Shown here piece by piece: positions 1-33,713 of a stretch of 64,000 bases of DNA; the first letter of the stretch is position 1, and every line of letters begins with the position of its first letter. This DNA is from Tepidanaerobacteraceae bacterium (GTDB lineage Bacteria > Bacillota > Thermosediminibacteria > Thermosediminibacterales > Tepidanaerobacteraceae), in the NCBI GenBank assembly GCA_029982615.1, contig JARRBK010000002.1, positions 23,637-87,636 of the forward strand. Reading direction: 5' to 3'. The notes under the pieces are model-generated. The model was not told where the DNA came from and did not search any database. It saw only the letters and a program-made list of their open reading frames with translations. Both the position numbers and the translations under genes were made by a program.

Positions 1-117
1 ACACCCTCCTTCTCATCTCGCCGAATCTTAAGGTCGGAGCTTCATGGATATAAAGCTTATTGCTCCTGTTGTTTACCTGATCCGTGCGGCAGGCAGCCCA
101 ATGGCACCACCCCTGCT
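1..117 (-). ncRNA. Candidate structured RNA or leader, truncated by the window edge
   Basis: Minus-strand sequence GGGGTGGTGCCATTGGGCTGCCTGCCGCACGGATCAGG... just downstream of a near-consensus promoter; several short complementary arms (GCAGG/CCTGC, GGAGC/GCTCC); no convincing ORF. Confidence 0.35.
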
Positions 118-146
118 ATTTTAGCATATGAATCATTTTGTGTCAA
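118..146 (-). promoter_or_regulatory. Sigma-A-type promoter TTGACA-N17-TAAAAT (TGC before -10)
   Basis: Minus strand TTGACA (146-141), 17-nt spacer, TAAAAT (123-118), preceded by TATGC. Confidence 0.6.
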
Positions 147-646
147 CGAGGGTTTGAACCTTTTGAGGAAGTAGTCTTGGGAAAATGCCAAACCAAAGTC
201 TTTAGAGGTTCTTTTGGGCCTTTGAGGTTCTCCCCTGCTTCTCTCGAAGATTCTTTATTTTTTATTTCTTTCATGGCCTTTTTAAAATCTATTATCTTTT
301 CGTTTTCGCTTTTATAATCATCATGGCATATATTTTGTTTTTCCATTTCAAATGACTCCTTAACAGCTTCAGCTGCTATCTTCTCGCTTCCTTTATCCGC
401 TATCCCGCACTCATGTATTGGAATATCCTCTGGCTGTGAAAACTGCAATGATATGGGCTTTTGAAGGGCATCCGCTTCACTGGGTGTATCTTTTTCATTG
501 AGTGTATCTTTTGTTTTTGAATGAATGCACATATTCTTATCCAGAAATATCGAAAGCCCTATAACGTTAGTCAACAGCAGCATATATATTAGCGTAGTTC
601 TTCCGGCACTTTTCGAGTCCATCATCACATCCTGAAAACTTGTCAT
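143..646 (-). CDS. Hypothetical protein with N-terminal transmembrane segment
   Basis: 167-aa ORF, SD GGGGG 7 nt before ATG; hydrophobic IYMLLLTNVIGLSIFL; no family recognised. Confidence 0.6.
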   Translation of the reverse strand: MTSFQDVMMDSKSAGRTTLIYMLLLTNVIGLSIFLDKNMCIHSKTKDTLNEKDTPSEADALQKPISLQFSQPEDIPIHECGIADKGSEKIAAEAVKESFEMEKQNICHDDYKSENEKIIDFKKAMKEIKNKESSREAGENLKGPKEPLKTLVWHFPKTTSSKGSNPR

Positions 647-922
647 TGAAAGACCCCCTATATAATTTTGCCGTCGGGCGGGCAGCGGTTAATGAAGGAT
701 TTACCGTTTCCCGCCGACTAAAATCTTATCTTAACTATATATATGATAAAAATGTTTTTTATGACACTCATTCTGCCAATATTAACACTATCAACACTAA
801 AAATATTATAAAAGCATCATGTAACGTATCTTGAGATAGAATCAAAGAAGACCCCTCCTTACCATATTTTATAATTAATTTTACACTTATAAAATATTCA
901 CCTATAAAAATTAAGTGCATAT

Positions 923-2272
923 TTACATAGTAACTGTCCCCTTATCAGTTTCAACCACTTTTAGTATCTGTTCTTCCAGCCCGTTTTCAGCATTTATATA
1001 TATTAAATATCGTTCTTCCTTCAATTCGCCGTCAACTTCATAACACAGTTTTTCCTTCAGCGCAGAATCGTGAATTAAAGCAAGCCTGATTCTTGTTACT
1101 TTTAAGTTTTTGTTTAATCTGTCTATAACTTGTTGTTTTGAAATTTTTATATTAGGATAACTTCTTTGACGGTGGAACGTTAGATAAGCTGTACTATCGA
1201 ATCCGACTACTTGACCGTTGTCCAACGCCACTTCTATCTTAACAAAGTCAGGGTACAGTAGTACTTGTTTATTTTTTGGAACAAAAGTTATGGTAATCGT
1301 TCCATCCTGAGTAAGGGAACCGGTGGCCTCCATATTATCATATCCCCTGGAACTAAGAAATGTTCTAGCTCGGTCCACTGCTTCTTTAAAACCAATTTTC
1401 TGCGCGCCGATTTGTCGAGTATTTAAATACCAGATAACGTGGCCGCCTTTTTCACTGATATCCATAACCACCTCAGGGTTATTTTCACCTTTACGTGTTA
1501 ATTCAACGCTGTAAGCCCGAATATTTCCCTTGGTTTTTCCGGCTATGCTGATATCATATTTATACTTGCCAGGGTTATCAACAAAATCTGCTGCCAAATT
1601 TATTGCCATAGTTTCTGTTATGGTTGAGCCCGTCAGGCCCATAGGTTTTACATTTTCCACATGGTCTGAAAAAGGGCCGTCATAAGTAATGGTGGGGACT
1701 TCATCCTTCAATTTCTGATCTATATTGGAAAATCTATCTGCCATAGCCTGAGGCAGTTTGTTCATTTTACCTAAAGCAAAGCCTCTGTTTTCCCATTTTA
1801 TCCTACCAGCAGCTACATCATCTTGCAGTTCCCTCAGCTTTTTACTCAAATCCTGAGAATATTTTTTAAAATCCTCTATCTTTTCCCATTCCTCAGGTGT
1901 AATTTTTTCGCCATTCACTATTTTTTTCGAAAGGCTGTATGAAAAATCCCCCAGCTGTGCAAAGAATTTCTGGCTATTCGTCATATCCCTTTGCCCCAGC
2001 GGAAGTTGAGATAGGCTTGTCCGGGCACCTTCCGCCTGGTGCCATATGGTTGTAAACGTCATTATTCGCTGGGCATCAGAGGAAGTCACCAGGCTTTTAG
2101 AAATAAGCAAATTTAAATTATTTACTTGGTCGATAAGGTCGAAAAATCCCCGCTGATATGAAGCTTCAAGGGCGTTTTCAGCCGAGTATGCTCTCTCTGA
2201 TATTGTCCAGAATCCAAAGATTATTCCTCCTGCCAGCAAAATACCGATAAGCCATAAATACGTTTTTTTCAA
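923..2272 (-). CDS. ypeB: Germination protein YpeB
   Basis: Sequence character of YpeB and position directly downstream of sleB. Confidence 0.92.
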   Translation of the reverse strand: MKKTYLWLIGILLAGGIIFGFWTISERAYSAENALEASYQRGFFDLIDQVNNLNLLISKSLVTSSDAQRIMTFTTIWHQAEGARTSLSQLPLGQRDMTNSQKFFAQLGDFSYSLSKKIVNGEKITPEEWEKIEDFKKYSQDLSKKLRELQDDVAAGRIKWENRGFALGKMNKLPQAMADRFSNIDQKLKDEVPTITYDGPFSDHVENVKPMGLTGSTITETMAINLAADFVDNPGKYKYDISIAGKTKGNIRAYSVELTRKGENNPEVVMDISEKGGHVIWYLNTRQIGAQKIGFKEAVDRARTFLSSRGYDNMEATGSLTQDGTITITFVPKNKQVLLYPDFVKIEVALDNGQVVGFDSTAYLTFHRQRSYPNIKISKQQVIDRLNKNLKVTRIRLALIHDSALKEKLCYEVDGELKEERYLIYINAENGLEEQILKVVETDKGTVTM

Positions 2273-2287
2273 ATTATCCCCTCCAAA

Positions 2288-2776
2288 CTATTTCCCAAAT
2301 ATATGTCGGCCTATCTGCGTCATCACGCGCCTGGTCCATATCCATGGATTCACCCATTTATACGGGTTCCAGAAATAAAGGCTTCCATAAGTGGGATCCC
2401 ATCCATTTAATGCTTCCCTCGCTGCATTGAAATTGCTTCGGCTGGGATATGTGGCCCATATTTGACCGTTGCTAACGGATTCAAACGCTCCAGGCTGGAA
2501 AATTACCCCTGCTATTGTGGGAGGAAATTTTGGGTGTTTTGCCCGATTTAAAATCACCGCCGCAACCCCCACCTGACCTAAGTACGGCTCCCCTCTTGCC
2601 TCACCTGACACTAGCCTCGCTAGAAGCATATAATCACCATTCCATGAAGAAACAGCATAATCTTCTGCTCTTGCCTGAGAAGCGTTGCTAGCAATATTTT
2701 TGTCGTATACTGCAAACATACCCATTGGAATCAAAACAACTAAAAAAATCAAAACAAACTTTTGCACTTTAGTCAA
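2288..2776 (-). CDS. sleB: Spore cortex-lytic / cell wall hydrolase SleB
   Basis: Hydrolase_2 motif LLARLVSGEARGEPYLGQVGVAAVILNRAKHPKFPPT; paired with ypeB. Confidence 0.92.
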   Translation of the reverse strand: MTKVQKFVLIFLVVLIPMGMFAVYDKNIASNASQARAEDYAVSSWNGDYMLLARLVSGEARGEPYLGQVGVAAVILNRAKHPKFPPTIAGVIFQPGAFESVSNGQIWATYPSRSNFNAAREALNGWDPTYGSLYFWNPYKWVNPWIWTRRVMTQIGRHIFGK

Positions 2777-2894
2777 TTTGAAACACCACCCTTGTTTTTT
2801 TTAGTTTATGATTTTTTCAGTTCATTATTCCAGCACCATTTAATGCCCTTTATTCATATAATATTTTAGAAACGCACTATAGGGAGGGGATTTT

Positions 2895-3074
2895 TTGAGC
2901 AAAAAAAATGGTAAAAAAAACCCCCAAAATAAAGCCAGGTCTAACCCCTATACACTTTTTCTTATACTAATACTCTTGATTAATTCCACTGAAAGCACTT
3001 GTATTTTTAAAAATAAAAAACTTTTTAATTCCAGGAGGGTAGAAAATGAAAATCCTGACACTGGCAGAAGATGA
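2895..3074 (+). CDS. Hydrophobic microprotein (LFLILIL family), TTG start, overlaps next ORF
   Basis: Own translation: MSKKNGKKNPQNKARSNPYTLFLILILLINSTEST...; SD AGGGAGGGG upstream; shares the core with ORFs at 3370, 4283 and 4412. Not in ORF track. Confidence 0.5.
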   Translation: MSKKNGKKNPQNKARSNPYTLFLILILLINSTESTCIFKNKKLFNSRRVENENPDTGRR

Positions 3075-3357
3075 TATGCAGATTTTAAAGGCTATAAAAC
3101 CTTTTTTGACCACCAAAGGCCAGGGAATTATTGATACATTCATTACTGTAATGAATATTTTTAGGCCATCAGAGCCGCAACAAAAAATAAACATCGATGC
3201 CCTCGCTGACTTTTTAACCATAATGAATGAAAGCTTTGAAAGCCAAAAACAATATACTGAAACGAACGAGACTGAAGAACAAAACGGCGCCCTGAAATCA
3301 CAAGACGTAGAAAATCTCTTGAATATCCTGGCTGACAAAAAGCTTTCCAAAGGATAA
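3046..3357 (+). CDS. Hypothetical 103-aa protein
   Basis: SD AGGAGGG before ATG; same strand as the following small genes. Confidence 0.65.
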   Translation: MKILTLAEDDMQILKAIKPFLTTKGQGIIDTFITVMNIFRPSEPQQKINIDALADFLTIMNESFESQKQYTETNETEEQNGALKSQDVENLLNILADKKLSKG

Positions 3358-3369
3358 GGAGGTGCAGAT

Positions 3370-3489
3370 ATGGGCAACAGAGCTGTATTTTCCCTTTTTC
3401 TGATACTTATTTTGATGTTATTTTCCGATAGCACTTTAACTAAAGAGGCTGACAAATTAAAAAAGGCTGAATCAGCAGATGCTTCATAA
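3370..3489 (+). CDS. Hydrophobic microprotein (LFLILIL family), 39 aa
   Basis: Own translation MGNRAVFSLFLILILMLFSDSTLTKEADKLKKAESADAS; SD AAGGAGGTG. Not in ORF track. Confidence 0.65.
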   Translation: MGNRAVFSLFLILILMLFSDSTLTKEADKLKKAESADAS

Positions 3490-3570
3490 CAATTTTAGGG
3501 CTAAATGCCCTAATTTTTGTTCATCATTCATCCATTGAAGACATATAAATAGTTACTGGAGGTGTAAAAT

Positions 3571-3864
3571 ATGTTTGGAGATATGGAAAAAATGGCTAAA
3601 ATTTTTCAGGACGAGATACTCCGTTTAAAAGAACAACTGAAAAATACTGTTTTTACAGAAAAATCTTGCGACAACCGTGTAACCGTCTCCATAAATGGTC
3701 TTGAAGAAGTAGTAAAAGTCAGCTTTAATGCTGATGAATTGCATCCTGAAATTAAGAATTATCTTGAAAGCTCAACCCTTGAAGCTACAAATAGGGCTCT
3801 TTTAAAAGTAAAAGAATATTTAAAACAGAAATTTTCCAATTACGACTTATTTGGAGGGATATAA
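3571..3864 (+). CDS. YbaB/EbfC-family nucleoid-associated-like protein (paralogue)
   Basis: VTVSINGLEEVVKVSFNADEL...LESSTLEATNRALLKVKEYLKQK follows the YbaB pattern; SD GGAGGTG. Confidence 0.7.
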   Translation: MFGDMEKMAKIFQDEILRLKEQLKNTVFTEKSCDNRVTVSINGLEEVVKVSFNADELHPEIKNYLESSTLEATNRALLKVKEYLKQKFSNYDLFGGI

Positions 3865-4233
3865 TTGGTTCAAAGCGACAACAACTCCAAAATCGACCTA
3901 CTGACGACAATTTTGGATGTCATCCACGGCAGACACAGCCAGAGTACAAATGAATTGGTGAGTTTATTGGCTTTAAGCAACCTGCTGGGAATAATAAGTT
4001 TTATAAATTCACAGGATATAAAATTCGATATGGGTTCTCCTTTAAAATCTGGCAATGCAGATTTGAAAGAAATGGCCATGAATCTTTTGAGTTCTATGGG
4101 CAGCGGCTCTTCCGACAAAAAAATAAATCCAACAATGCTTTTAAATATTTTGAAGACAATGTCATCAGGAGAAGGTTCCTCACCGGAAACGAAAAGTATA
4201 GAAAAAAGTGAAAATAAGCCGAAGAATAACTAA
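3865..4233 (+). CDS. Hypothetical 122-aa protein, TTG start
   Basis: Starts directly after the YbaB-like stop; SD GGAGGG; ends before a strong terminator. Confidence 0.65.
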   Translation: MVQSDNNSKIDLLTTILDVIHGRHSQSTNELVSLLALSNLLGIISFINSQDIKFDMGSPLKSGNADLKEMAMNLLSSMGSGSSDKKINPTMLLNILKTMSSGEGSSPETKSIEKSENKPKNN

Positions 4234-4237
4234 TAGC

Positions 4238-4267
4238 GAAGCCGTGCTTTAGCACGGCTTCATTTTT
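4238..4267 (+). terminator. Rho-independent terminator
   Basis: GAAGCCGTGC-TTTA-GCACGGCTTC then ATTTTT. Confidence 0.85.
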
Positions 4268-4282
4268 AAATCATCATATTTA

Positions 4283-4366
4283 TCAATCATCAGAGAAGAA
4301 CAGGAGAATCAATATTAAAAACAATGCAAATGCCATTCTGCTATCAAACCCACCAAATCCTCCCAT
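4283..4366 (-). CDS. Hydrophobic microprotein (LFLILIL family), 27 aa
   Basis: Own translation MGGFGGFDSRMAFALFLILILLFFSDD*; SD GGAGGG. Not in ORF track. Confidence 0.7.
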   Translation of the reverse strand: MGGFGGFDSRMAFALFLILILLFFSDD

Positions 4367-4411
4367 TTTAACCCTCCTTTCTTTTTTAATACCACCTATA
4401 TTCATATCAAC

Positions 4412-4492
4412 TCAATTGTCTCCGAAAAACAAGAGTATAAGTATTAAGAATAGTGCAAAAGCCATTCTGCCGCCATAGAACCCATCTGCCAT
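4412..4492 (-). CDS. Hydrophobic microprotein (LFLILIL family), 26 aa
   Basis: Own translation MADGFYGGRMAFALFLILILLFFGDN*; SD AAAGGAGG. Not in ORF track. Confidence 0.7.
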   Translation of the reverse strand: MADGFYGGRMAFALFLILILLFFGDN

Positions 4493-4603
4493 AATCTATA
4501 ACCTCCTTTGTCTTTAGCCTAATATAATATATGCTTTATATATGGAGGCGGTTACTGATTACCAAACCAAAAGCCTTCTGCATTAATCAAATCAAAAAAG
4601 CAC

Positions 4604-4649
4604 AAAAAAAGTCCGGGCCCATTTTTACAAAATTTTGCCCAGACTTTTT
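4604..4649 (-). terminator. Terminator downstream of rng
   Basis: Minus strand AAAAAGTCTGGGC...GCCCGGACTTTTTTT. Confidence 0.8.
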
Positions 4650-4657
4650 CATTATCA

Positions 4658-6355
4658 TCATATCAATCTAGCTCTCGCGTATGTCCGAAAGGTTTTATAT
4701 ATTTCGACCCGAACTTTTTCTCCCACAAGGTTTGCTCCTTCCTCCACATCAATGATGTAACCGTCGACCCGTGCAATACCGTCATTCGTATTTGAAATAT
4801 GGACCTCTTCTATAACCACATCCATAATCTGCCCTTCCCGCACTGGCATTGCCATGCTTTCAAGCTTGGCCTTGCTGCCCACGGCTTTTATTCTGATTTC
4901 TTCAGGATGAAGGCTGTCATTTCCTTTAATAAAAATATACTTTTCATATCGGCTCTCCATCTGCGAAAGGCGGTTGCCGCCGCTTCCAATTACTACTGAC
5001 GCCACTGAAGGATGGACTTCCAACAATACAGCTTCGCCCTTTCGTTCGCGAAACACCCTGACCAATTCCCTTTCCACTTTTTTTGCGACTGTATCTTCTG
5101 AAAGTATCCTTCCTCTGCCTTCACAGTACGGACAGGTTTTTTCAAGCACCTCGTCCAAGCTTTGGCGCACCTTTTTACGGGTAATCTCTACAAGGCCAAG
5201 TTGTGTCAAGCCGAGTATGTGAGCTCGTGTCCTGTCTTTCTTCAATTCTTCTTCCAGGGCGGAAAGCACCATTTTTTGATGTTCGGGTGATGTCATATCA
5301 ATAAAATCGACTATTATAATACCGCCAATGTCTCGCAACCTCAATTGCCTGGCTATTTCACGCGCTGCTTCAAGATTTGTCTTTAAAACCGTATCTTCCA
5401 GATTCACACTTCCTACGAACTTGCCTGTGTTGACATCTATTGCAGTTAATGCTTCCGTCCTGTCTATCACAATATACCCGCCACATTGAAGCCATACTTT
5501 GCGCTGCAAAGCCCTGTCAATCTTCGATTCGATATTAAAATATTCAAAAATTTCTTCCTGGCCCCTGTAAAATACGACCCTATCTTTTAATGCAGGCGAA
5601 AGCACTGACAGCATCTCTTGAACTCTTTCATACTCATATAAGCTGTTTATGTAAAACTTGCTGACTTCGGGAGTAAAGATGTCCCTTACCATTCTCGATA
5701 TTAGATTCATATCTTTATAAATAAGTTTCGGAGAAGAACACTTTTTTTGTCTTTGCAATATATCTTGCCATTGCCTCTTTAAAAAATCTATGTCGGCCTT
5801 CATCTCATCTTTTCCAATACCTTCAGCAACAGTCCTCACAATTACTCCCATACGAGCAGGCCTAATGCTTTCCGCCAAGGATTTGAGCCGGTTTCTCTCA
5901 TCATCTTTTTCTATGCGCCTCGAAATGCCAACATAGTCTACAGTGGGCATAAGCACCACATATCTACCGGGGATAGTGATATTTGTTGATACTCTCGCCC
6001 CCTTCGTGCCAATGGGTTCTTTTACAACCTGCACCAGTACATCTTGGCCAACTTTTAACATATCCTTAATAGATACTTTTTTTAAGCCTTCAATCAATTC
6101 TTCATCTTCAGGGCTCGACGGCTCAAAGTTGAAATTTATGTCGCCTGCGTATAAAAAAGCATTCTTGCCTAAGCCAATATCTATAAATGCAGCCTGCATC
6201 CCCGGCAAAACATTTGCTACTCTTCCTTTGTATATATTCCCCACGACTCGTTCATTATTGATTTTTTCCACATATATTTCTGAAAGTTCTCTCTCTTCCA
6301 GAACAGCCAGACGTATCTGGTCCCTGCTTACGTCAACAACAATCTCCCTCGACAT
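4658..6355 (-). CDS. rng: Ribonuclease E/G family (RNase G)
   Basis: S1 and RNase E/G signatures: RVANVLPGMQAAFIDIG, GGYIVIDRTEALTAIDVNTGKFVG, CPYCEGRG. Confidence 0.93.
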   Translation of the reverse strand: MSREIVVDVSRDQIRLAVLEERELSEIYVEKINNERVVGNIYKGRVANVLPGMQAAFIDIGLGKNAFLYAGDINFNFEPSSPEDEELIEGLKKVSIKDMLKVGQDVLVQVVKEPIGTKGARVSTNITIPGRYVVLMPTVDYVGISRRIEKDDERNRLKSLAESIRPARMGVIVRTVAEGIGKDEMKADIDFLKRQWQDILQRQKKCSSPKLIYKDMNLISRMVRDIFTPEVSKFYINSLYEYERVQEMLSVLSPALKDRVVFYRGQEEIFEYFNIESKIDRALQRKVWLQCGGYIVIDRTEALTAIDVNTGKFVGSVNLEDTVLKTNLEAAREIARQLRLRDIGGIIIVDFIDMTSPEHQKMVLSALEEELKKDRTRAHILGLTQLGLVEITRKKVRQSLDEVLEKTCPYCEGRGRILSEDTVAKKVERELVRVFRERKGEAVLLEVHPSVASVVIGSGGNRLSQMESRYEKYIFIKGNDSLHPEEIRIKAVGSKAKLESMAMPVREGQIMDVVIEEVHISNTNDGIARVDGYIIDVEEGANLVGEKVRVEIYKTFRTYARARLI

Positions 6356-6388
6356 GGATGTTCAGCTCCTCAAAATGGTAAAAATTTA

Positions 6389-7072
6389 TCATAATGGAGG
6401 TGTGGAATTCCCCTCCTTTATTAAATATAATTCCTCCCTGTGGATATGTTTTACTATCAATTCCTCCGAAAGATGTATACTCAATGCCTTTATTATCATA
6501 TCGGGCGACACGCTTTCCCGCTGGCCAGCAGCTATTGTCATCTTCAATAAAATCCCGCCGCCAGTTTTTGTCATTACTTTAATATTATAAATCATGGGCG
6601 CTATATTCACTTTCTTTATCCCTTTTTTGGTAACTTTTTCCATGTTTATCTCTTTCTTATTCACCAGTTCTTTCACCGCTGCCTCTATATATTCTTTTGG
6701 ATAATCACCCGCCAGCGAAACTGCATACAATGCAGCATTTATCTCTGAAAGGGCGAATTTTCCTTCAAAATCGCTTGCTTTTAAGGCCTTCAGCCCCTCC
6801 GGCAAACAAGAATTTAAGCGTCGCAAAACCTCCTGCACCGGAATATCTTCATAAAACTCCACATCCACATATTCACTGCTGCTGGTGACCCCAACGGATA
6901 GCGCCGGAGAAAATATTAATCTTGGATGTGGAGTAAATCCTTTTGAATATGCCAGCGGAAGTTTTGCTCTCCGGAACGCCCGCTCAAATGCTCGCATCAT
7001 ATCGAGATGGGAAATATATTTTACCGGCTCAGCCTTTTCGAATTTTATTCTGAGCTTCACAAAAGCCACCAC
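6389..7072 (-). CDS. DUF2344 / TIGR03936-type radical-SAM-associated protein
   Basis: LRIKFEKAEPVKYISHLDMMRAFERAFRRAKLPLAYSKGFTPHPR; overlaps the radical SAM gene. Confidence 0.88.
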   Translation of the reverse strand: MVAFVKLRIKFEKAEPVKYISHLDMMRAFERAFRRAKLPLAYSKGFTPHPRLIFSPALSVGVTSSSEYVDVEFYEDIPVQEVLRRLNSCLPEGLKALKASDFEGKFALSEINAALYAVSLAGDYPKEYIEAAVKELVNKKEINMEKVTKKGIKKVNIAPMIYNIKVMTKTGGGILLKMTIAAGQRESVSPDMIIKALSIHLSEELIVKHIHREELYLIKEGNSTPPL

Positions 7073-32366: not shown

Positions 32367-32667
32367 CTTATCGACCACCCTCTGTTAATTTTTTCAAGTT
32401 TAAAACGAAATTCTACACCAATCTAAAATAGGTACTTTTAAATTCATATGAACAGAAAGGCTTATTCCATGAAAATATTATTTCTTGTACTAATATTCCC
32501 TATGCTAATATTTATGATATTTATATTTCGCCTAAGAACTATTTGATATTATAATACCAAGTCATGCCTTATGTCAATATTATGGCAAGATTGCTGGAAC
32601 CGAAAAAAAAGCTTCGGCATAATATACTATTGAAAGAGGCTTCAATAATGCGATGGGAGGAATGCAT

Positions 32668-32838
32668 ATGAGCACTTTTGACGATATAAATAGAGATTAT
32701 CACATGGATTCAAAACTTGCTGAGGCTTATGTGCCCATGCAGATGTACGGCGAGATTTTTGATTTGAGGGCAGCACTTTGTCACGGGACTCTTTTCCCAG
32801 AGCTGTACAGACCCTATCCCAGAAGAACATCAGAATAA
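32668..32838 (+). CDS. cotJA: Spore coat protein CotJA
   Basis: LAEAYVPMQMYGEIFDLRAALCHGTLFPELYRPY; SD GGGAGG. Confidence 0.9.
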   Translation: MSTFDDINRDYHMDSKLAEAYVPMQMYGEIFDLRAALCHGTLFPELYRPYPRRTSE

Positions 32839-32858
32839 AAAAGATGGAGGTGAACAAT

Positions 32859-33122
32859 ATGCCGCTCAACACTCCCGGCAATATGATAGAAATGTTAAAA
32901 GAAATACAGGCAGTGGACTTTGGAGTATACGAACTTGCCCTTTTTCTGGATACTCATCCCGAAGACCGTCAGGCTTTGGATGAGCACAACAAGCTGGTTA
33001 GGAAATCTTATCAGCTAAAAACCGGCTATGAAGAAAAATACGGTCCTCTTCGGTTGGATTCCCTGTCCCAATATCCTTATCAATATGTAAAAGAACCATG
33101 GCCTTGGGAAATAGTATACTAG
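32859..33122 (+). CDS. cotJB: Spore coat protein CotJB
   Basis: MLKEIQAVDFGVYELALFLDTHPEDRQAL...WPWEIVY; SD GGAGGTG. Confidence 0.92.
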   Translation: MPLNTPGNMIEMLKEIQAVDFGVYELALFLDTHPEDRQALDEHNKLVRKSYQLKTGYEEKYGPLRLDSLSQYPYQYVKEPWPWEIVY

Positions 33123-33140
33123 TGAGGGGAGGGAAACCCA

Positions 33141-33713
33141 ATGTGGTACTACGAAAAAAAGCTGGAATACCCGGCCAATGTTTCCAGAACCGATATTACT
33201 ATGGCAAAATTCCTGTATGCACAATACGGCGGCCCTGATAGCGAACTTTCCGCTGCAGTAAGGTACCTTACTCAGCGCTACACGATGCCTATACCTCAGG
33301 CAAAAGCTGTTTTAACCGATATTGGGACCGAAGAGCTCGCCCACTGGGAAATCATAGGCACTTTAATATATAAACTCACCGAAGGTGCCACGCCGGAACA
33401 GCTTCGCAGAGCCGGCGTGGGCGACCACTATGCCCAACACGATAAAGCCCTCTATCCTCAAGGCGCATCCGGCGTTCCATGGACTGCCGCATATGTTCAG
33501 GCTACCGGAGACCCCATAGCCGACCTGCATGAAGACATGGCTGCTGAACAAAAGGCTCGCGCTGCCTATGAACGCCTAATAAATTTAACTGACGACGCCG
33601 GAGTAATAGCTACACTATCCTTCCTAAGGGAACGGGAAGTGGTGCACTTCCAGAGATTCGGAGAAACCCTTATGCTGGTTAGGGAACATATGATGAATAA
33701 ACACATATATTAA
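33141..33713 (+). CDS. cotJC: CotJC, manganese catalase-like spore coat protein
   Basis: MWYYEKKLEYPANVSRTDITMAKFLYAQYGGPDSELSAAVRYLTQRY. Confidence 0.94.
   Translation: MWYYEKKLEYPANVSRTDITMAKFLYAQYGGPDSELSAAVRYLTQRYTMPIPQAKAVLTDIGTEELAHWEIIGTLIYKLTEGATPEQLRRAGVGDHYAQHDKALYPQGASGVPWTAAYVQATGDPIADLHEDMAAEQKARAAYERLINLTDDAGVIATLSFLREREVVHFQRFGETLMLVREHMMNKHIY

Follow-up and report, generated by a model that had tools for sequence, protein, structure and literature searches.

SpoVM, a membrane-associated product of the mother cell of about 26 aa, resembles the micropeptides described below in these respects, but it is a single-copy amphipathic helix made earlier, whereas the micropeptide core is uniformly hydrophobic and present in many copies; the two are set apart here by description. 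Closer still are the YjcZ peptides (PF09680, YjcZ_2; TIGR01732), which are tiny, have a Gly-rich N-terminus and one hydrophobic stretch, and occur in multiple copies in spore-formers. YjcZ belongs to the sigma-K regulon of B. subtilis (PMC517825). A further described system is the CotJA-CotJB-CotJC coat operon, and in C. difficile cotJB2-cotD was found to be sigma-K-dependent (PMC3789822).

Little is known about the spore coats of anaerobes, and hydrophobic peptides of 25-40 residues tend to escape both the usual gene callers and tryptic proteomics. Here, we describe four micropeptide genes from a bacterium of the family Tepidanaerobacteraceae, found in a window of 64 kb (the whole stretch of DNA that was analysed). 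On sequence grounds they belong to a single large family, as yet uncatalogued, whose members are rather probably structural peptides of the spore envelope that seek membranes and are made late in the mother cell. In kind they are similar to YjcZ, and one of the types would anchor a module of partner proteins. The locus comprises the following features:

923-2272, minus strand: ypeB (TIGR02889, E=6e-124)
2288-2776, minus strand: sleB, a cell wall hydrolase gene divergent from the type B gene (PF07486, E=3e-34; TIGR02869, E=2.1e-54, under the curated cut-off)
2895-3074, plus strand: type B micropeptide gene, TTG start, 59 aa, containing ...SNPYTLFLILILLINST...
3046-3357, plus strand: orf3046, conserved, 103 aa, LLKAIKPFMSxKGQExLD ... 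DVENLLN (15 relatives aligned)
3370-3489, plus strand: type C micropeptide gene, ATG start, 39 aa, MGNRAVFSLFLILILMLFSDS plus a polar tail
3495-3513, plus strand: terminator-like hairpin closing the B-orf3046-C unit (pattern scan)
3571-3864, plus strand: YbaB/EbfC-like paralogue (PF02575, E=1.3e-13; TIGR00103 above cut-off)
3865-4233, plus strand: orf3865, conserved, 122 aa, SLLALSNLLGIISFLN ... DKKINPAxLLNLMK (17 relatives aligned)
4237-4262, both strands: strong bidirectional terminator serving orf3865 (plus) and A1 (minus), with a GC-rich stem of 10-11 bp (pattern scan)
4283-4366, minus strand: type A1 micropeptide gene, ATG at 4366, stop at 4283, 27 aa, MGGFGGFDSRMAFALFLILILLFFSDD
4412-4492, minus strand: type A2 micropeptide gene, ATG at 4492, stop at 4412, 26 aa, MADGFYGGRMAFALFLILILLFFGDN

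On the plus strand the order is thus B, orf3046, C, the hairpin, the YbaB-like gene and orf3865, and the bidirectional terminator parts these genes from the convergent A2-A1 pair, in which A1 lies 45 bp downstream of A2. Three peptide types can be distinguished: type A on the minus strand (A1 and A2), type B at 2895, which has a basic tail and NPYTLFLILILLINS and whose gene shares 29 nt with the one that follows, and type C at 3370, which consists of NRAVFSLFLILILMLFSDS followed by a polar tail. Each of the four reading frames is preceded by a good Shine-Dalgarno (SD) sequence (GGGAGGGG, AAGGAGGTG, AAGGAGGG and AAAGGAGGTT for the starts at 2895, 3370, 4366 and 4492, respectively), although start codons were picked partly on SD score. 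For the gene ending at 4283 a longer in-frame ATG exists at 4405, but the start that gives 27 aa is the more probable one in view of its conservation and its SD. All four SD-preceded frames reported by an earlier, sequence-only reading of this DNA were recovered at these positions. The Gly-rich N-terminus that it attributed to the peptides holds for the two minus-strand peptides only, and the N-terminus of the peptide at 2895 is basic and polar instead.

The string LFLILIL occurs four times in the six-frame translation of the window, every time within 2801-4600, and was absent from all 60 Markov-shuffled windows (mean 0.00). In relatives, which were gathered via ypeB and peptide searches, the frames, SDs and gene order are kept across Tepidanaerobacteraceae and Thermosediminibacteraceae. 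The arrangement of type B, orf3046 and (with the YbaB-like gene) orf3865 is retained in genomes of families f1 and f2 with few exceptions (G012 and contig breaks). In f1 this B-orf3046-orf3865 unit faces one to three tandem type A genes beside rng, found in nearly all genomes of that family; in f2 most of the type A copies occupy other sites of the genome. Type C is confined to genera g1 and g5.

Comparison with the congener G001 shows for A1 identity in 27/27 residues with 10 synonymous and no non-synonymous changes, and for A2 12 synonymous changes and one non-synonymous; A2 and its SD are conserved in G001, G005 and G009. The type B core NP(Y/F)xLFLILILLxxS is kept in 12 relatives, and type C shows a dN/dS of 0.14-0.38 with a conserved core. 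In types B and C the constraint resides mostly in the core. The conserved SD-preceded frames in f1 and f2 and the ratios of synonymous to non-synonymous changes (10:0 in A1, 12:1 in A2) therefore support the conclusion that the four genes are protein-coding and under purifying selection. The sequence-only reading had made its case depend on conservation of these frames and SDs in related genomes and had named dN/dS across orthologues as a check; frames and SDs are indeed conserved with synteny, and dN/dS is very low. Its preference for duplication and selection over chance is likewise borne out by the absence of LFLILIL from shuffles, by the very low dN/dS and by the phylum-wide occurrence of the family in multiple copies. 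Many short ORFs do arise in AT-rich regions, but the idea that these are merely chance hydrophobic ORFs of an AT-rich stretch has a vanishingly small probability and is already refuted by the shuffled windows, the codon-level conservation and the homologues across the phylum.

Among the neighbours, orf3046 and orf3865 match no family in Pfam or NCBIfam. Their structure models, built from 5-6 sequences and too weak for a fold search, are of low confidence (orf3046 helical, mean pLDDT 74, pTM 0.42; orf3865 pLDDT 59), and homology between the two proteins was rejected (hhalign just 6.7%). The product of 3571-3864 belongs recognisably to YbaB/EbfC (PF02575), but in contrast with the usual members it appears to be a diverged paralogue in a sporulation-type cluster and not in a housekeeping position. 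Downstream of ypeB, an ORF of 167 aa at 143-646 on the minus strand is probably membrane-anchored and has no family match; a weak homologue (26%) occupies the same place in G007 (L091:6790-7245).

A family profile was built from 44 peptides. With it the family was detected in 112/399 sampled genomes of the phylum (E up to 0.01), with up to 12 copies per genome, and the view that the four genes form one family, to be found by searching spore-formers for the shared core, was thereby sustained. The peptides have a median length of 31 aa and on average 3.8 Gly before the core, type B being devoid of the Gly-rich end. No family of Pfam, NCBIfam or PHROGs matches them, and a literature search for the motif returned nothing apparently relevant; the family is uncatalogued in the sense that it is absent from these three databases and from the papers searched. 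As a check of specificity, a degenerate DNA pattern was run over one genome per species (85,462 species). Among the matches listed, contigs of other phyla contain no SD-preceded, profile-matching ORF; the exceptions are a MAG that bears the label Deltaproteobacteria (L277, L319) and a small number of borderline matches with poor SD. Since this pattern itself demanded FLILIL, it was left out of the figures for core conservation given below.

The distribution follows that of sporulation genes. SpoIVA is present in 335/399 sampled genomes and the micropeptide family in 107/335 of those; because it is not universal in spore-formers, the core sporulation programme does not include the peptides. When only genomes at least 90% complete are considered, the family occurs in 98/306 with SpoIVA and in 2/50 without, and strong matches (E up to 1e-5) in 77/306 and 0/50, respectively (Fisher p=3e-6, phylogeny ignored). 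This supports a family probably confined to spore-formers among the near-complete sampled genomes. In G012, a genome of the same family as the window (genus g6, 99% complete), YpeB, SpoIVA and the micropeptides are all absent, while its congeners G006 and G010 have all three; apparently G012 is a recent asporogenous lineage.

Consensus expressions for sigma-E, sigma-K, sigma-G, sigma-F and sigma-A promoters were set before scanning. The sigma-K expression AC-N14-17-CATANNNTA was found in 30% of the micropeptide upstream regions, in 1.1% of other genes of the same loci and in 0.7% of shuffles. Among full two-part motifs enrichment was seen for sigma-K only; those of sigma-E, sigma-G, sigma-F and sigma-A were rejected as unenriched (0-2% of upstreams). 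The refined two-block matrix reads GTAAC(A/C)-N-CATANNATR with a spacing of AC-N16/17-CATA. With one taxonomic family left out at a time, it recovered 82/123 of the micropeptide genes, while among the other genes about 16/471 (~3%) were picked up. By operon position, promoters were found for 82/95 lead micropeptide genes and 6/28 followers, a split that fits operon logic. The held-out matrix largely fails in families f117, f128 and f110 (1/11 genes). Sigma-K and sigma-E promoters have a common -10 region and differ at position 4 of the -35 region, which is C in the former and T in the latter (PMC517825, Eichenberger et al.). The sites described here show AC-N16/17-CATANNNTA with C, not T, in the -35 region; position 4 is C in 98% of them.

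At 11 bits the matrix is unspecific over the whole window (22 matches versus 18.8 in shuffles), so only sites of at least 17 bits or conserved in position were accepted. They include the following, listed together with the operon downstream of one of them:

2832-2864, plus strand: weaker sigma-K-type promoter, AC-N18-CATATAATA, 12.5 bits, for the type B - orf3046 - type C operon
4524-4555, minus strand: sigma-K-type promoter GTAACCGC-N13-GCATATATTAT (AC-N17-CATATATTA), 31 bp upstream of the A2 start, for the A2-A1 pair
32596-32627, plus strand: sigma-K-type site 25 bp upstream of cotJA-cotJB-cotJC, 17.2 bits, second best of the window
32653-33713, plus strand: cotJA-cotJB-cotJC-like coat operon (CotJA PF11007, CotJB PF12652, Mn_catalase PF05067)

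The matrix was built without the sequence of the window, and the element at 4524-4555 is the top match of all 64 kb (21.0 bits); elements of this kind also precede type A genes of relatives (L063-L073, L076). At the position equivalent to 2832-2864, AC-N17/18-CATATAATA or a close variant is present in relatives of f1 and f2, and its -10 region is the CATATAAT box of the sigK P2 promoter of C. difficile (PMC3789822). The cotJ site is an unplanned, independent positive control for the matrix. A further site of 17.0 bits (33683-33713) overlaps the end of cotJC. Taken together, these promoters suggest that sigma-K RNA polymerase would transcribe the micropeptide genes late in the mother cell. A link to sporulation, already proposed from the letters of the DNA, is probable in view of the co-occurrence with SpoIVA and the sigma-K-type promoters.

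The most conserved feature of the peptides is their core. In the 123 peptides of the profile search the columns of FLILILL are occupied as F100 L99 I94 L100 I91 L100 L99 (percent), values that are somewhat inflated since a profile search favours conserved residues, and FxxFLILILL is present in 123/129 peptides examined. Val can take the place of Ile in its two columns but Leu cannot, and the columns of Leu are nearly invariant. Generic hydrophobic segments usually swap L, I, V and F freely; because the core is invariant by comparison, we infer that FLILILL may constitute a specific packing interface. Charge counts are nearly neutral before the core and acidic after it, which weakly favours an orientation with the N-terminus inside. 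Insertion of the peptides into a membrane is not certain because a hydrophobic stretch of 14-15 residues is short for a bilayer-spanning helix. An ORF with two cores occurs in G027, and the two-core ORF at L081:3840-4034 (minus strand; NPFSLFLIFVLLVFSGD and NPFQMFLILVLLVQS) suggests a putative internal duplication.

Tiny hydrophobic peptides in many copies behind late mother-cell promoters of sigma-K type might also be membrane-active and make the membrane of the mother cell permeable as sporulation ends, a holin-like aid to lysis. This is quite unlikely, as the invariance of FLILILL goes beyond what pore formation by generic hydrophobicity needs, a soluble conserved domain is fused to some of the peptides, no holin or other PHROGs match was obtained save one borderline spanin match (E=0.089), and no amidase operon is co-localised except the divergent sleB. 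In outline, small hydrophobic peptides encoded in tandem look like type I toxins. Nevertheless, that the peptides are type I toxins from toxin-antitoxin pairs, or serve in phage lysis, is extremely improbable given the deep syntenic conservation, the sigma-K-type promoters and the lack of a PHROGs match. No antisense RNA antitoxin was detected by Rfam, which covers known RNA families, within positions 1-7000 of the window, and an origin from toxin-antitoxin systems or phages was thus rejected as being without Rfam or PHROGs support.

The partner genes recur beyond the families of the locus itself. An orf3046-like gene adjoins type B in f1, f2, f26 and f84, and core and orf3046-like domain are joined in one protein in f33, f39, G136 and a Thermincola MAG. 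In f26, f84, f33, f7 and f39 a module recurs in varying combinations: (sleB), a NAL1/trypsin-like protease, type B, orf3046-like, YbaB-like and orf3865-like genes, and type A copies. Many other copies are solitary, some near cotJC and others near gerA. In several families of the phylum, the protein families of orf3046 and orf3865 are found together with the micropeptides and a YbaB-like paralogue, and the protease gene repeatedly turns up in the neighbourhood of the module (10 genomes; L157:6529-7536, L170, L178, L179, L185 and others). Genomes of f26 have two orf3046-like domains within one protein, and in a Bacillota MAG (L300:3194-4892, plus strand) successive ORFs with orf3046-like domains are followed by an orf3865-like gene.

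SleB and YpeB are forespore products in B. subtilis. From the adjacency or fusion of type B to orf3046-like domains in most lineages, and from the frequent position of the module near sleB, one could conclude that the peptides are only anchors or small regulators of specific proteins (orf3046-like, YbaB-like, orf3865, or SleB/YpeB) and form no structural layer. We regard this as rather unlikely, since many type A copies are solitary or in tandem and distant from such partners, with up to 12 per genome, and SleB/YpeB are made in another compartment.

The preferred reading, peptides of the spore envelope, would operate as follows. The lead gene of each cluster would be transcribed by sigma-K RNA polymerase late in the mother cell. 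Each peptide would insert or pack via its hydrophobic stretch of 14-15 residues so that its N-terminus, Gly-rich or polar, faces the mother cell, and copies would associate with each other through the invariant FLILILL face. In this way they may form or seal a layer of the maturing envelope that is hydrophobic or associated with a membrane, and to this layer type B, adjoining or fused to an orf3046-like domain, would anchor the soluble partner module (orf3046, YbaB-like, orf3865). Self-association and envelope location are deduced from conservation, copy number and promoter class only and are meant as predictions. A bolder and more tentative extension is that FLILILL might be the self-assembly motif of a phylum-wide sigma-K-driven class, which in the spores of anaerobes would form a hydrophobic sheet or fibre, or a layer of sealed membrane, with partners carried by fusion or adjacency. 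Carriers of the family include Moorella thermoacetica; according to a spore proteome paper on this species (PMC8745062), its spores exceed those of all other known food-spoilage microorganisms in heat resistance, and in the portion of that paper available to us such peptides are not mentioned. This multi-copy family, carried by more than 100 genomes, is now furnished with a profile, a syntenic anchor and a promoter signature, and orf3046 and orf3865, two unnamed protein families, would become tied to late mother-cell development.

How does this family compare with the known systems? It shares with CotJA-CotJB-CotJC the type of promoter, detected by the same matrix in the window, and a cotJC-like gene is found no more than about 1 kb away from some of the solitary micropeptides (L132, L186, L079, L087), but there is no relation in sequence, CotJC being a catalase-like enzyme and CotJA and CotJB soluble coat proteins. 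With YjcZ it shares size, Gly-rich N-terminus (type B excepted) and multi-copy habit. Its core differs: instead of the YjcZ core FALIVVLFILLIIVG, which was sought in the family and not found, 123/129 peptides have FxxFLILILL, which is shorter, continues as FxxFLILILLxxG(D), often with an acidic end, and comes with operon partners of its own. The sequence-only reading had spoken of a loose resemblance to YjcZ with a different core, and it is this resemblance that endures, the profile match being no better than column-permuted controls.

The peptides agree with YjcZ in size, in the Gly-rich N-terminus, in having one hydrophobic stretch, in occurring as multiple copies and in sigma-K timing (PMC517825). 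Together with an hhalign value of 91.5% against the extended family set, this could suggest highly diverged true members of YjcZ (PF09680/TIGR01732). We consider this unlikely, because 8/100 column-permuted YjcZ alignments match as well or better, and the core is shorter with a different invariant FLILILL. The curated PF09680/TIGR01732 profiles do not match the peptides of the window at E up to 10 or the 44 family members at E up to 1. Moreover, PF09680 is present in 9/399 genomes, none of them among the 112 with micropeptides (p=0.067 for this non-overlap alone). Homology with YjcZ was rejected on the permuted controls, the lack of a curated match and the disjoint genomes. If the self-assembly reading is true, the family would have arrived independently at whatever the YjcZ peptides of Bacilli accomplish. 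That peptides of YjcZ type have a counterpart beyond Bacilli thus becomes a proposal open to testing, and the best reading of the comparison is a putative clostridial counterpart of YjcZ in function, for which homology is not supported.
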